NCBI RefSeq assembly: GCF_004116625.1
Contig: NZ_NXIE01000001.1
Coordinates: 62,001 to 126,000 of the forward strand
Direction: 5' to 3'
From: Halarcobacter mediterraneus
Lineage (GTDB): Bacteria; Campylobacterota; Campylobacteria; Campylobacterales; Arcobacteraceae
Length of the DNA: 64,000 nucleotides
Both the position numbers and the translations under genes were made by a program. Under the pieces are notes generated by a model, which made no database searches, was not told the DNA's origin, and saw only the letters and a list, made by a program, of their open reading frames with translations. Shown here in pieces: positions 4,053 to 58,129 of this stretch (the stretch's first letter is position 1; each line of letters begins with the position of its first letter).

Positions 4053-4724
4053 TTAGAGTGTAAATTTAGTGTACTCTTTAAAATATAGGTTTTTTAAAAT
4101 TTTAATTTGTTCATTTTGTAGGTAATTAAATTTAAATTCACACTCTTTTAGGTAATAAAAGAAGTTTTCATCATCTATTCCTTTATATTTTCTAAGATTT
4201 TTTTCTAAATATTTCCAAAAAATATTTAGAGGAGTAGAATAGGAATCTTTAGAAAAAATTCTATGCCATTTTAAATAGTTTTCAAAGGTTTTATTATCGT
4301 CTTCATTATTATATAGGGGGAGTTTTGGCATTAAAAGAGTATAAATTCTTTTATTTGAATAAAAACCTATGATATTGATTGCTTCATATAAAGATTTTTT
4401 CTTTTCTTTTTTTTGTTTATCATTAAAATAATAAAACTCTTCATATGAACTATTATCTTTTGGTAAAGATTGATAAGTTTCTTCTAAATAGTTTGAAATA
4501 AGTTTTCTAAAAAGGTTGTATCTATTTTTTATAGTACGATAATTAACATTTAAAAGCTTTGCACATTTATTTGCGCTTATTTGATTACAGAAAAATTCAA
4601 TAACAGTAATATCTGTTTCAAATTTTTTTACAGAAAACTTTTTTTTACATGAAGAACATTTTTTATAATTGTTCTTTAAATGGTATAATTGTTTATTGTT
4701 ACAATATGGGCATTTTTTTATCAT
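4053..4724 (-). CDS. Degenerate ISXO2/IS1595-like transposase, possibly a domesticated DNA-binding protein
   Basis: The 223-residue frame keeps the layout of IS1595-group transposases: an N-terminal zinc ribbon (C5-x2-C8 and C23-x2-C26), a helix-turn-helix (about 48-76, ending NYRTIKNRYNLFRKL), a reduced ISXO2-like core and the family's C-terminal signature (NIFWKYLEKNLRKYKGI, then LKECEFKFN). The core is degraded. The first catalytic block, normally DETYFGG-like, reads EEFYYFN. The central stretch carrying the second aspartate is nearly gone, and the final catalytic-block N/H residues are replaced by STPLN. Full-length relatives have about 300 residues. No terminal inverted repeats were found around it. 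The open frame without stops suggests it is maintained, perhaps as a regulator of the divergent hyp operon; that role is inference. Confidence 0.65.
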   Translation of the reverse strand: MIKKCPYCNNKQLYHLKNNYKKCSSCKKKFSVKKFETDITVIEFFCNQISANKCAKLLNVNYRTIKNRYNLFRKLISNYLEETYQSLPKDNSSYEEFYYFNDKQKKEKKKSLYEAINIIGFYSNKRIYTLLMPKLPLYNNEDDNKTFENYLKWHRIFSKDSYSTPLNIFWKYLEKNLRKYKGIDDENFFYYLKECEFKFNYLQNEQIKILKNLYFKEYTKFTL

Positions 4725-4798
4725 ATTTTATTTTACTATTTTTGTCCTAAAAGTACATAAGTAGTATAAGCTATTAGCTTGCTTTCAGCTTCTAGAAA

Positions 4799-4831
4799 AT
4801 AAACTATAGTTTATATAAATGAACATTCATT
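4799..4831. promoter_or_regulatory. Two adjacent palindromes upstream of hypB
   Basis: A perfect 16-bp palindrome, ATAAACTATAGTTTAT (4799-4814), is followed at once by AATGAA-CA-TTCATT (4818-4831). They sit 17-50 bases before the hypB start in the divergent region shared with the transposase-like gene, where an operator would be expected. The binding protein is unknown. Confidence 0.45.
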
Positions 4832-4847
4832 AAATAAAGGAAAAACT

Positions 4848-5609
4848 ATGTGTCAAGATTGCGGATGCTCAATAACAGACCATCATCATGAACATCATGG
4901 AGATTCAGACTCTCATCAATCAGCTCATGAAACCTTACATCATAACCCACAATTAAATGATAGTAAGACAATTTCAGTCATTAAAAAAATTTTAGATAAA
5001 AATGACCATGAAGCAGCTCATAATAGAGCACACTTTGATAAACATAATGTTTTAGGAGTTAATTTAATGTCAAGTCCTGGAAGTGGGAAAACAACTCTTT
5101 TAGAGCATTTATCTGAACTTACAAATTTTAAATTTGGTGTTGTAGAAGGTGATTTAGAAACAAATAAAGATGCTGATAGGTTAAAAGAAAAAGATATAAA
5201 AGCTGTACAAATTCAAACAGGTAGTGCCTGTCATTTAGATGCTTTTATGGTTCATAAAGGTTTGCATGATATGCCTTTAGAAGAACTAGATGTATGTTTT
5301 GTAGAAAATGTAGGAAATCTTGTATGTCCAGCTTCTTATGATGTTGGTACTCATTTAAATATCGTTCTTGTTTCTATTCCAGAAGGAGAAGATAAAATTG
5401 CAAAATATCCTGTTATGTTTCGAACAGCTGATTTAATATTATTTACAAAAACAGATCTTCTTCCATATTTTGAATATGATTTAGAAAAAGAAAAAGAAGT
5501 TGCAAGAAAGCTAAAACCAAATGTAGATATTTTAGAAGTATCAATAAAAGATAAAGATAGTTTACAAGCAGTTGTTGAGTGGATTAATTTTAAAAGAAAA
5601 ATGAGATAA
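4848..5609 (+). CDS. hypB: Hydrogenase nickel incorporation GTPase HypB
   Basis: This cytoplasmic GTPase (253 residues) drives nickel insertion into [NiFe] hydrogenase. The N-terminal high-affinity metal motif CQDCGC is followed by a histidine-rich stretch (about residues 12-32), as in nickel-storing HypB proteins. The P-loop SSPGSGKTT lies at about 75-83, and the G-domain nickel/zinc motif SACHLDA near 126-132. The ATG follows AAAGGAAAAA. It is the first gene of a compact hypBCDEA operon, with only one base to hypC. Confidence 0.97.
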   Translation: MCQDCGCSITDHHHEHHGDSDSHQSAHETLHHNPQLNDSKTISVIKKILDKNDHEAAHNRAHFDKHNVLGVNLMSSPGSGKTTLLEHLSELTNFKFGVVEGDLETNKDADRLKEKDIKAVQIQTGSACHLDAFMVHKGLHDMPLEELDVCFVENVGNLVCPASYDVGTHLNIVLVSIPEGEDKIAKYPVMFRTADLILFTKTDLLPYFEYDLEKEKEVARKLKPNVDILEVSIKDKDSLQAVVEWINFKRKMR

Positions 5610-5610
5610 T

Positions 5611-5895
5611 ATGTGTTTATCAATACCATCAAAAATTACAAAAATAGATAAAGAAAATAATATAGCAACCGTTGATACAATGGGAGTAGAAAGACAAGCT
5701 TCTTTAGAACTAGTTGATCAGGCTGTGGAAGTTGGGGATTATGTACTTATTCATATTGGTTTTGCAATGAATAAAATAAATGAAGAAGATGCTTTAGCTT
5801 CTTTAGAGGTTTATAAAGAAATTATAGAAAAAATGGAAGAAGATGAACGTCGTCAGGCAATACTTGAAGATGAAGCCTGTCCCAATAAGGCTTAA
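5611..5895 (+). CDS. hypC: Hydrogenase assembly chaperone HypC
   Basis: A 94-residue member of the HypC/HupF/HypC-like family. It starts with MCLSIP, whose Cys2 (after removal of Met) binds the Fe(CN)2CO precursor between HypD and the large subunit. The body shows the expected small barrel motifs GVERQASLELV and VGDYVLIHIGFAMNKI. It starts one base after hypB and three bases before hypD, so the genes are translationally coupled. Confidence 0.97.
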   Translation: MCLSIPSKITKIDKENNIATVDTMGVERQASLELVDQAVEVGDYVLIHIGFAMNKINEEDALASLEVYKEIIEKMEEDERRQAILEDEACPNKA

Positions 5896-5898
5896 GTT

Positions 5899-7023
5899 AT
5901 GGAACAATTGAAGTTAAAAGACTTATATGATGGTTTTAGAAATCCTCAAACTATAAAGGCTTTAAAGAGACTACTTGACAAAGAAGCTAAAAAACTTAAT
6001 ACAAAAATAAATATTATGGAAGTTTGTGGGGGACATACCCATACTATTATGAAATATGGAATTAACCAATTGTTACCTGAGAATATTGAATTTATTCATG
6101 GTCCTGGTTGTCCTGTTTGTGTGATGCCAAAAGAAAGAATAGACCATGCTTATCTTTTAAGTTTACAAGAAAATGTAATTTTAGTAACATTAGGAGATAT
6201 GATAAAAGTTCCAGGTAGTCGTGGAAGTTTGCAAGATGCAAGAAGTAAAGGTGCTGATGTAAGATTTGTTTACTCTCCTTTAGATACTATAAAAATTGCA
6301 AATGAGAATAAAGATAAAAAGATAATCTTTTTTGCAATAGGTTTTGAAACAACAACTCCAATGACTGCTGCACTTTTAGAACACGTTATAAAAAATAAAA
6401 TAGACAATATCTATTTTCATATAAATCATATAACAGTTCCTGAACCTATGAGAGTATTATTAGATAATCAAGACTGTAAAATAGATGCTTTTATTGGACC
6501 TTCTCATGTTAGTGTAATTACAGGTTCAAAAATATATGAAGAGTTTGTAACAGAATACAATAAACCAGTAGTTGTAGCAGGTTTTGAACCAGTTGATGTG
6601 ATGCAATCAATTTTGAGTTTAGTAAAACAGTTTAATGAAAATAAATGTGAACTGGAAATTGAATACTCAAGAGCAGTTTCATATGATGGGAATCTAGCAG
6701 CTCAAAAATTAAATGATAAATATTTTATAAAAGCAGAACATTTTAGATGGAGAGGATTAGGAGATATTCCAAATTCAGCTTTAAAATTAAAAGATGAATA
6801 TGCTTTTTTAGATGCTGAATTAATCTATAAAGATATTTTACCAAATGAAGAAATAGATGATCATAAATTATGTATTTGTGGAGATATAATGCGTGGCGTT
6901 GCTAAACCAAATGATTGTAAGGTATTTGGGAAAGCCTGTAAACCAAGCTCACCTTTAGGCTCTTGTATGGTAAGTAGTGAAGGTGCTTGTAGTGCTTATT
7001 ATAAATATGGGAATTTGTTATGA
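5899..7023 (+). CDS. hypD: Hydrogenase iron-ligand scaffold HypD
   Basis: HypD (374 residues) is the [4Fe-4S] scaffold on which the Fe(CN)2CO centre is assembled with HypC and HypE. The three conserved cysteine blocks are present: EVCGGHTHT, HGPGCPVC, and the C-terminal cluster-binding run with CICGDIMRG, KACKPSSPLGSCMVSSEG and ACSAYYKYG. The length is typical. Its last four bases overlap hypE (ATGA), which indicates coupled translation. Confidence 0.97.
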   Translation: MEQLKLKDLYDGFRNPQTIKALKRLLDKEAKKLNTKINIMEVCGGHTHTIMKYGINQLLPENIEFIHGPGCPVCVMPKERIDHAYLLSLQENVILVTLGDMIKVPGSRGSLQDARSKGADVRFVYSPLDTIKIANENKDKKIIFFAIGFETTTPMTAALLEHVIKNKIDNIYFHINHITVPEPMRVLLDNQDCKIDAFIGPSHVSVITGSKIYEEFVTEYNKPVVVAGFEPVDVMQSILSLVKQFNENKCELEIEYSRAVSYDGNLAAQKLNDKYFIKAEHFRWRGLGDIPNSALKLKDEYAFLDAELIYKDILPNEEIDDHKLCICGDIMRGVAKPNDCKVFGKACKPSSPLGSCMVSSEGACSAYYKYGNLL

Positions 7024-8015
7024 AAACAATTACATTAGCTCATGGTAATGGTGGGCAAGAAAATAATGAACTTATTTCAAAGATTTTTTATAAAGCTTTT
7101 GAAAATGAGATTTTAGCAAAAAGTGAAGATGCAGCAATTATTCAAGATGGAACTTTAGCTTTTTCAACAGATTCTTTTACTGTAAGTCCTATAGAATTTC
7201 CTGGGGCAGATATTGGTAAGTTAGCTGTTTGTGGTACTTGTAATGATTTAGCTATGATGGGAGCTAAGCCTAAATATCTTACTTGCTCAGTTATTATTGA
7301 AGAAGGTTTTGAAGTTGAAACTTTAAAAAGAATTGTTGCAAGTATGAAAAAAGAGCTTGAAGTAAATGGAGCTATTGTAGTAAGTGGAGATACAAAAGTA
7401 GTACCAAGAGGAAGTGTAGATAAAATATTTATAAATACAACTGGAATAGGGCAAATACAACAAAAAGGAATATCTTCAAACAACATTCAAGAAGAAGATA
7501 TGATTTTAGTATCAAACTCAATAGGAAAACATGGGGCAACAATTTTTGCAAGCAGAGAAGGAATTGATTTTTCAACTTCTTTAAAATCTGATTGTGCGTC
7601 ATTATGGCCAGTTGTAAAAAAGCTTATTGATAGTGGTATAAAAATAAGAGCCTTAAGAGATGCAACAAGAGGTGGAGTTAGTGCTGTTTTGAACGAATGG
7701 GCAAAGCAATCAAATATTTGTATTGAAATTGAAGAAGAGAAAATCCCAGTTTGTGATGAGGTTAATGGGATTTGCGAACTTTTAGGTTTTGAGGCTTTAA
7801 GTTTAGCAAATGAAGGAACTTTTGTAATGGCAATATCAAAAGATGAAGTTCAAAAAGCTTTAAAAGTTTTAAAAGAAATTGATACTTCAAAAGAAGCTCA
7901 GATTATAGGAAAAGCAAGTACTTTACATCGAGAAAAAGTTGTATTAAATACTGCTTGGGGTACACAAAGATTTATTGATTTACCAACAGGTGAGTTATTG
8001 CCAAGGATTTGTTAA
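7020..8015 (+). CDS. hypE: Carbamoyl dehydratase HypE
   Basis: HypE (331 residues) converts the thiocarbamate on its C-terminal cysteine to thiocyanate and delivers cyanide to the HypCD iron. The N-terminus has AHGNGGQENNELI, the ATP-binding region has the PurM-like motifs (AVCGTCNDLAMMGA, DATRGGVSAVLNE), and the protein ends with the conserved PRIC, Cys being the final residue. HypF, which loads the carbamoyl group, is not encoded in this window. Confidence 0.97.
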   Translation: MKTITLAHGNGGQENNELISKIFYKAFENEILAKSEDAAIIQDGTLAFSTDSFTVSPIEFPGADIGKLAVCGTCNDLAMMGAKPKYLTCSVIIEEGFEVETLKRIVASMKKELEVNGAIVVSGDTKVVPRGSVDKIFINTTGIGQIQQKGISSNNIQEEDMILVSNSIGKHGATIFASREGIDFSTSLKSDCASLWPVVKKLIDSGIKIRALRDATRGGVSAVLNEWAKQSNICIEIEEEKIPVCDEVNGICELLGFEALSLANEGTFVMAISKDEVQKALKVLKEIDTSKEAQIIGKASTLHREKVVLNTAWGTQRFIDLPTGELLPRIC

Positions 8016-8016
8016 T

Positions 8017-8358
8017 ATGCATGAATATAGTATTGTACAGTCCCTTTTAGAGTCTTGCGAGGAACACGCTAGACAAAATGATTCAACAAATGTCACAAAA
8101 GTTGTAGTAAAAATTGGAGTTTTAAGTGGAGTAGAACCAGATTTACTTCAAACTGCATTTGATACTTTCAAAGAGAAAACTGTCTGTGAAAATGCTAAAT
8201 TTATAATAAATCATCAAAAAGTTGTAATAAGTTGCTTATCCTGTAATACAGACTCAACTTTAGAAAAAAATGAATTCTCTTGCCCTAAATGTAATTCAAC
8301 TCAAGTTAAGGTAATAGATGGGGAAGATATGTTTTTGATGAGTTTGGAAATGAATTAA
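8017..8358 (+). CDS. hypA: Hydrogenase nickel metallochaperone HypA
   Basis: The ATG at 8017, one base after the hypE stop, gives the family N-terminus MHEYSIV with the nickel ligand His2. An upstream in-frame start at 7975 would add 14 non-conserved residues inside hypE and is rejected. The 113-residue length is typical. The zinc site is formed by CLSC (about 74-77) and CPKC (about 91-94). HypA passes nickel to HypB and the hydrogenase large subunit. It is the last gene of the operon. Confidence 0.96.
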   Translation: MHEYSIVQSLLESCEEHARQNDSTNVTKVVVKIGVLSGVEPDLLQTAFDTFKEKTVCENAKFIINHQKVVISCLSCNTDSTLEKNEFSCPKCNSTQVKVIDGEDMFLMSLEMN

Positions 8359-56640: not shown

Positions 56641-58129
56641 CATCAAATACTTTACTTAGAATTTCACTTTCACTTAATTCTTTTTTTGCTTGTGTTTTTG
56701 GTGGATTCTTTATGAGTAATACCATCTCTTTTAAATCATCTAGATTATATTTTGTAAGGTTATTAAGTAAAGTATCATTAATCATTTCTTTTTTTAGTGT
56801 ATCATTATTGATCATTTTACCTATTACTGTTTGAAGATTTTTTCTTGTTCTTTCAAATACTTTTTCTTCTTTTGTAAGAACTTTACACTCTTTTTCCAAG
56901 TAAGTAATTAAACTATCACCTTTGTATTTATATGTTTTTACTGAATTATATACAAACTCTTGAGATTTAACATCTTCTAAATATACATTAGTAAATACAT
57001 ATCCTCCAACTTCAACTAGTCCAACTAAAGATCTAACTGGATTATGAGAACAGATGAAATCTTCTTTTACTCTTACAGGAGCATATTCTAAAGAAGTAAT
57101 ATTATTTCTTAAAACAATAAAGTTTTTATTTACTTCAATTGGTCCACCTTTTAAAGATACTAATTCATTTTTGAAAGCTAAAAAGTCTCCACCGACTCTT
57201 TTAGGACTTCCTTCTAAGGTAGTTAGTTCATTATCACTAATATCGAAATCCCCTTCTACTTCATGAAATCTAAGAGGAAGTTTTGAAAGATTTTCTAATT
57301 TTCCTGAAAGTCTAACATCTCCGTGAACTCTTACTGAGTTGTCTGGAAGTACATTATACTTTTTGATTCCATTTCTATGAAGCCATCTTTCAACTTCATC
57401 TTTCGTAGTAAGTGCTAATAAAGGTTTGTAGATATGTCCAATTACCTCTTCACCTTTATATTTCCACATTTTCTTTTCATCATCAAAGTTTCTCGAAATA
57501 TGATTTAAAGAAATATCAGTAAAAAGGTTCCATGAAATCTCATCGGCTATATCATTAAGATTTTTTAATTGATTCCAGTAGCAAGCATAATCTTGTCCAA
57601 CTGTAATAGGTCCACCCCTAAGTAATTCTAATCTATTTTTAGAACAGTCAAAAGTTCCTTCTACATATTTTGGACCACCTTCTAAAGTTGTTAGTACATT
57701 ATTAGAGCAATTAAAAAAACCAGTAATACTTCTAGGCGCACCCTCAATTGATTCAAGTCTATTATTTGAACAATTATAGTAACCATTAACTTCTTTTGGT
57801 CCATAAGATAGATTGTTTTTTAATTCATTATTTGAGCAGTCAAAATCTCCGACTTCATTTGGTGCACCAAAAAGTGAAGTTAATTGATTATAAGAACAAT
57901 TGAAGTCCCTTACTACTTTTTTTGGCGAGCCTTTTAAAGAAGTAAGATTATTATTTGAGATGTTAAAATATCCATCAATTACATCAAACTTTATAGGTAG
58001 TTCATTTTCGTCAATTTTCCCTTCTAAGTTAACACTTCCATGAACAGTTATGTATAAATCTTCAGATATAGTGAAGTTTTCAACTCCTTTTTTTGTAAGC
58101 CATTTTTTAACATCATTTACATCATTCAT
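56630..58129 (-). CDS. Leucine-rich-repeat-like protein with two duplicated modules
   Basis: A 499-residue protein with no signal peptide. Two related modules, about residues 6-235 and 245-412, each begin with a head (VKKWLTKKGVENF / VERWLHRNGIKKY, then a VHGSVNLEGK / VHGDVRLSGK strand) and continue with repeats of about 20 residues of the form VxGxFxCSNNxLTxLEGxP. Each ends in a KYKGEEVI / KYKGDSLI tail. A helical, charged C-terminal part follows (415-499). Similar repeat proteins occur in tailed-phage genomes and in some bacteria; function unknown. It stands apart in repeat architecture from its metabolic neighbours. Confidence 0.75.
   Translation of the reverse strand: MNDVNDVKKWLTKKGVENFTISEDLYITVHGSVNLEGKIDENELPIKFDVIDGYFNISNNNLTSLKGSPKKVVRDFNCSYNQLTSLFGAPNEVGDFDCSNNELKNNLSYGPKEVNGYYNCSNNRLESIEGAPRSITGFFNCSNNVLTTLEGGPKYVEGTFDCSKNRLELLRGGPITVGQDYACYWNQLKNLNDIADEISWNLFTDISLNHISRNFDDEKKMWKYKGEEVIGHIYKPLLALTTKDEVERWLHRNGIKKYNVLPDNSVRVHGDVRLSGKLENLSKLPLRFHEVEGDFDISDNELTTLEGSPKRVGGDFLAFKNELVSLKGGPIEVNKNFIVLRNNITSLEYAPVRVKEDFICSHNPVRSLVGLVEVGGYVFTNVYLEDVKSQEFVYNSVKTYKYKGDSLITYLEKECKVLTKEEKVFERTRKNLQTVIGKMINNDTLKKEMINDTLLNNLTKYNLDDLKEMVLLIKNPPKTQAKKELSESEILSKVFDEEL

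Follow-up and report, generated by a model that had tools for sequence, protein, structure and literature searches.

The window, that is, the whole 64,000-nucleotide stretch of Halarcobacter mediterraneus DNA analysed here, contains the hydrogenase maturation operon hypBCDEA and, divergent from it across a spacer at 4725-4847, a gene for a transposase-derived protein that probably acts as a transcription factor and is hereafter called the regulator. The locus comprises the following features:

4053-4724, minus strand: regulator gene, encoding a 223-aa catalytically dead IS1595/ISXO2-derived protein with a zinc ribbon, a helix-turn-helix (HTH) and an eroded, putatively RNase H-like core
4730-4735, minus strand: candidate -10 element (TAAAAT) of the regulator's own promoter, starting 5 nt past the operator when read on the minus strand
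4741-4762, plus strand: candidate operator, a 22-nt asymmetric conserved site, TTTGTCCTAAAAGTACATAAGT, scoring 27.6 bits and the sole zero-mismatch match in the window
4800-4805, plus strand: candidate -10 element of the hypB promoter, TAAACT, located 37 nt past the operator; several relatives have an identical hexamer at this position
4820-4829, strandless: short palindrome, TGAACATTCA, near the transcription start, a 10-nt form of a 14-nt ArsR/SmtB-type palindrome
4848-5609, plus strand: hypB, opening the divergent operon that is presumably under the regulator's control
5611-5895, plus strand: hypC
5899-7023, plus strand: hypD
7020-8015, plus strand: hypE
8017-8358, plus strand: hypA, with the start set at the MHEYS methionine

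The reading frame at 4053-4724 (minus strand) is intact over 223 codons, in agreement with the initial annotation, which had described a gene free of acquired stops. Its product matches the NCBIfam IS1595 profile at 1.2e-6, far under the profile cut-off, disclosing a weak but real homology. Three elements of the ISXO2 group, all of them recognized in the initial annotation, are preserved: (i) the zinc ribbon, formed by C5, C8, C23 and C26, with the CxxC-CxxC pattern kept in 89 of 91 homologs; (ii) the HTH, located in the model within helices 32-86; and (iii) the C-terminal signature, which aligns as K(Y/F)xGI..F..(Y)LKECEF(K/R)FN. A zinc ribbon is common to most IS1595 groups (PMC8101967). The alignment of the 91 homologs against nine catalytic IS1595 transposases discloses, in addition, that catalytic block 2 (Y-[ST]-D) is missing from every homolog, that about 24 residues are deleted between blocks 1 and 3, and that the catalytic glutamate is gone in 86 of 91. 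The first catalytic aspartate is a glutamate in 45 homologs, including the window protein, and an aspartate in 42, E96 is invariant beside this D/E95 position, and the lysine of the catalytic signature is changed to E174 in 78 of 91. The previous claim that the catalytic blocks had been lost is borne out for block 2, the deleted segment and the glutamate, but block 1 is, as judged from the alignment, altered rather than lost.

The AlphaFold model of the regulator (pLDDT 86, pTM 0.82) comprises the zinc ribbon, the HTH helices, and a three-strand sheet accompanied by helices. Structural comparison of residues 88-201 returned weak RNase H-type matches, including Hermes (Z 5.4), retroviral integrases (~4) and Mos1 (~2.6). 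Foldseek searches with the model gave nothing below 0.001, and the fold searches yielded weak RNase H-type and HTH matches and no close solved relative.

Strong homologs of the regulator occur in 126 of 397 Campylobacterota genomes, about a third, distributed over families f1, f4, f5, f7, f8, f10, f11 and f12, plus one member of f3; the regulator is spread through members of the phylum other than Campylobacter and Helicobacter. The homologs fall into one clade, separate from genuine IS1595 transposases (100/100). Their tree clusters by host family, with 22 changes compared to 67 in shuffles, which points to mostly vertical descent with some transfers. Within the family of the window, the gene and hypD co-occur (both in 71 genomes, gene only in 2, hypD only in 12, neither in 19; p=7e-11). 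In 69 of the 71 genomes carrying both, the regulator lies 1.2-9.6 kb from hypD and is always divergent, the remaining two having them on different contigs. The divergent arrangement is also found in other families, where a NicO-like nickel permease is often the first gene of the operon, so that the orientation reported for the window holds across relatives, within 10 kb in the 69 family genomes and beyond the family. Four family genomes carry a second paralog away from hyp, and further unlinked loci were found in G456, G403 and G344; every one of these copies is divergently oriented relative to a nickel ECF operon (nikKMLQO) composed of DUF4198/NikK-CbiM/NikM-NikL-CbiQ-ATPase or closely resembling this form. 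What the gene contexts of the regulator have in common is nickel.

Several variations of this arrangement were observed. In some congeners (L033, L034, L235, L236), a DUF808-type gene stands between hypB and the regulator, accompanied in G005/G012 by an MFS transporter; in such loci the operator is located on the side of hypB, and in some of them at the regulator too. Whole hyp-regulator clusters reside on Sulfurimonas and Sulfurovum plasmids (L047, L048), which indicates that the regulon can travel.

The most conserved element of the spacer is the non-palindromic 22-mer at 4741-4762. Unsupervised motif finding in the 75 nt preceding the 91 homologs yielded TTaGTCCyAAAAaTAnATAAGA with a log-likelihood of 654, compared to 67-78 in shuffles; first EM runs on 200-nt upstream regions had returned coding-sequence repeats of hypB and the nickel permease, and the 75-nt limit gave the operator. 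The 22-mer precedes (i) hypB, also where the regulator is kilobases distant; (ii) the NiFe-hydrogenase small subunit, in the genome of the window at G000:C1:46536-46557; (iii) NicO-like nickel permeases, CbiM/NikM-type transporters and DUF4198/NikK in relatives; (iv) NikA (TIGR02294, 589.7 bits, cut-off 393); and (v) a TonB receptor and two substrate-binding proteins in congeners and other relatives. Scans across the genome of the window used patterns rather than a weight matrix, and four of the five other one-mismatch matches read there lie inside ORFs. A second motif-like match in the window (57627-57648, minus strand) falls inside a 499-aa ORF and was set aside as a chance occurrence.

The occurrence of the site follows that of the gene. 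A match of at least 12 bits was found at 50 of 84 gene-plus hyp promoters, all in the same orientation, versus 2 of 30 gene-minus ones (p=3e-7, an optimistic value given that the sequences share descent). The two gene-minus exceptions are G012, whose contig ends inside the DUF808 gene that precedes the regulator in congeners, and G112, a genome in which no regulator was found and where the usual place carries a weak match of 13.4 bits. About 40% of the gene-plus hyp promoters are devoid of a site at the 12-bit threshold, some of them displaying a T-rich variant or carrying the site at a more upstream position in the operon. At loci L103, L108, L109, L123, L125, L128 and L138, the central AAAA of the operator is replaced by a TTTT-rich segment with the outer GTCC and TATAAGA halves kept, a variant useful for studying protein-operator co-variation.

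A TATAAT-like box starts 36-37 nt after the motif at 66 of 104 sites, the maximum at any one offset in 200 shuffles being 9; the fraction is 44 of 62 beside the regulator and 22 of 42 elsewhere, the latter sites not having been used in motif building. If the box is taken as -12 to -7, the site would span approximately -70 to -49, as is classic for a class-I activator. Activators are typically placed at such a fixed distance, near -60, where the site does not overlap RNA polymerase. Toward the regulator, a -10 element lies 5-7 nt after the site in 28 of 62 cases, at gene-adjacent sites only, so that the site would cover approximately -39 to -18, a repressing position. The operator-to-(-10) spacing therefore suggests an activator of the divergent operon that represses its own gene. 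In the genus of the window, the site preceding the hydrogenase structural genes is reversed and located 134-169 nt from the start codon, an arrangement that does not fit simple class-I geometry, and regulation there may differ.

The initial annotation had emphasized two strong palindromes in the spacer. Both are present, but the 16-bp one, ATAAACTATAGTTTAT (about 4799-4814), shows no conservation and overlaps the probable -10 element of hypB, and the palindromes were discarded as the main operator; the most conserved element, the asymmetric 22-mer, had passed unnoticed. The 14-nt ArsR/SmtB-type palindrome TGAAY-N4-RTTCA is conserved in relatives, where it precedes hypB or the nickel permease at 36 loci with the regulator and 4 without it, and starts 43-54 nt after most of the sites that carry it, around the predicted start point. 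This element points to a second, probably metal-responsive regulator, and the genome of the window encodes at least two ArsR-type genes.

The explanation that we favour, and consider likely, is that an IS1595-type transposase has been exapted in Campylobacterota into a transcription factor that recognizes a specific sequence and controls nickel and NiFe-hydrogenase genes as a regulon, acting as an activator with autorepression. According to this model, the protein would contact the asymmetric 22-nt site through its zinc ribbon and HTH; bound there, it would activate the hyp and nickel-transporter promoters, and many hydrogenase ones, from the class-I position, whereas binding at its own promoter should shut the regulator gene off. 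The ArsR-type palindrome at the start site would probably add a second, repressing input. The nature of the targets suggests that the protein may respond to nickel status, the state of hydrogenase assembly being the other candidate signal. A more tentative proposal is that the protein is itself the nickel sensor, with the eroded active site (E96, D/E95 and E174) or the zinc ribbon binding nickel and setting the affinity for DNA; if true, it would be the first metalloregulator built from a DDE transposase. The former suggestion of a transposase-derived regulator of hydrogenase assembly gains support from the linkage, the dN/dS values given below and the lack of an active copy, but proved too narrow, the predicted regulon extending over nickel uptake, maturation and hydrogenase structure.

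The overlap of the own-promoter site with the -10/-35 region, a repressing position, would also suit a protein that represses throughout, binding upstream of the hyp and nik promoters and blocking them by looping or oligomerising, and a NikR-like logic would indeed repress uptake in nickel excess. We regard this as rather unlikely, because the hyp/nik site stands at a fixed -60, clear of RNA polymerase, and a repressor would presumably not need fixed helical phasing.

Linkage alone cannot identify the binder, and the conserved ArsR-type palindrome at the same promoters, together with the ArsR-family proteins encoded in the genome, raises the prospect that another regulator (ArsR-type, a response regulator or another factor) binds the 22-mer, the transposase-like protein being a regulon member with a different job. 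This seems improbable on four grounds: (i) the site lacks the symmetry of ArsR or NikR operators; (ii) it accompanies the regulator's promoter at every location to which the gene has moved, hyp and nik alike; (iii) it is missing at hyp promoters of gene-minus genomes, within the same families too; and (iv) no other gene is common to all these contexts. None of the listed members of the window's family, the genome of the window itself included, carries NikR (PF08753), and a Pfam and NCBIfam profile search of the 223-aa protein found no NikR_C domain. NikR is present in Campylobacter/Helicobacter-type families, whose sampled hyp promoters are devoid of the 22-mer; the site is therefore not explained by NikR. 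The two genes display a largely complementary distribution, with the regulator in 126 genomes, NikR in 147 and both in 21.

Sulfurospirillum-like genomes (L111-L120 and L139; G409) carry both genes, nikR adjoining the regulator gene in convergent orientation, which again indicates nickel. Expression of the membrane-bound hydrogenase (MBH) of Sulfurospirillum multivorans has been reported as constitutive (PMC5357620). The presence of nikR in these genomes and the constitutive MBH expression count against the favoured model, as do the gene-plus hyp promoters devoid of a site, the reversed site at the structural hydrogenase genes and the weakness of the fold matches.

The view that the gene is a decaying or still mobile IS1595 element lying beside hyp by chance, suggested by the homology itself and by the transposase annotation of homologs on two plasmids, can be dismissed given the loss of block 2 in all 91 homologs, the fixed divergent position and the evidence of copy number, termini and selection that follows. 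The gene is single-copy in its genome, with no active full-length copy of which it could be a recent remnant, and a single copy, 66-100% identical, is present in 15 of the 16 genomes of the genus. A search for terminal inverted repeats around the gene gave AT-rich chance repeats only, in line with the initial annotation, which had seen no such repeats, and the dN/dS analysis that it had proposed gave 0.03-0.07 among close congeners, denoting strong purifying selection rather than relaxation. A search of phage records for an origin of the regulator gave nothing matching, and a defence system was discarded on the basis of PADLOC, which returned no match.

The transcription factor proposed here resembles several known systems in part. 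IS1595 transposases with the ISXO2 domain, including ISAba36 and ISEc69, share the HTH and a C-terminal KxxGI..F...KECEFRFN, and probably the RNase H-like remains, but the regulator lacks block 2 and the glutamate, is about 24 residues shorter, and is encoded by a syntenic, single-copy gene without terminal repeats. As for NikR, both would control nickel uptake and hydrogenase genes, and the two genes adjoin in Sulfurospirillum-like genomes; the regulator, however, shows an unrelated fold, an asymmetric operator and a predicted activating role. Transposon-derived transcription factors are known from plants, namely FHY3/FAR1. The known nickel regulators RcnR, InrS, NmtR, KmtR, Nur and NimR, and the families NikR, RcnR/CsoR, ArsR, MerR and Fur (PMC7055735), comprise proteins that govern nickel, as the regulator probably does for nickel uptake, but the regulator belongs to none of these families, and its putative nickel sensing is suggested by its targets. 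TldR, derived from TnpB, is likewise a mobile-element protein exapted as a transcription factor (PMC13418256), but is RNA-guided and nuclease-derived, whereas the regulator would derive from a bacterial DDE transposase, recognize an operator encoded in DNA and control a metabolic regulon spread across the phylum.

Of hydrogenase gene regulation in Campylobacterota, 'nearly nothing is known' (PMC5357620). In the parts consulted, a review of respiratory control in the phylum names NikR control of hydrogenase for Helicobacter pylori only (PMC6682613). For this poorly understood regulation, the present analysis supplies a specific gene with a candidate operator, a set of targets and a promoter geometry. 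A review of exapted prokaryotic mobile elements lists phage- and antitoxin-derived regulators, no DDE-transposase-derived one being present among its regulator passages and the term DDE appearing nowhere in it (PMC8987985). Our literature search found no paper linking IS1595 to nickel or hydrogenase control, and no bacterial DDE transposase turned phylum-wide metabolic transcription factor; if the proposed role is correct, the regulator would be a clear case of such a conversion.

Two further observations concern other proteins. A 451-aa NiFe large-subunit-like protein (PF00374; L231:3122-4477) is encoded in the genome of the window directly upstream of the membrane hydrogenase operon and is kept in the genus. 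In Arcobacteraceae, a second, separate family of dead IS1595-derived proteins of approximately 185-212 aa (L251:619-1173, L252:620-1252, and L253-L256) comprises members without the zinc ribbon or a catalytic block, ending in RLKKFRG(I/L)xxEN..hhKES.FRFN.
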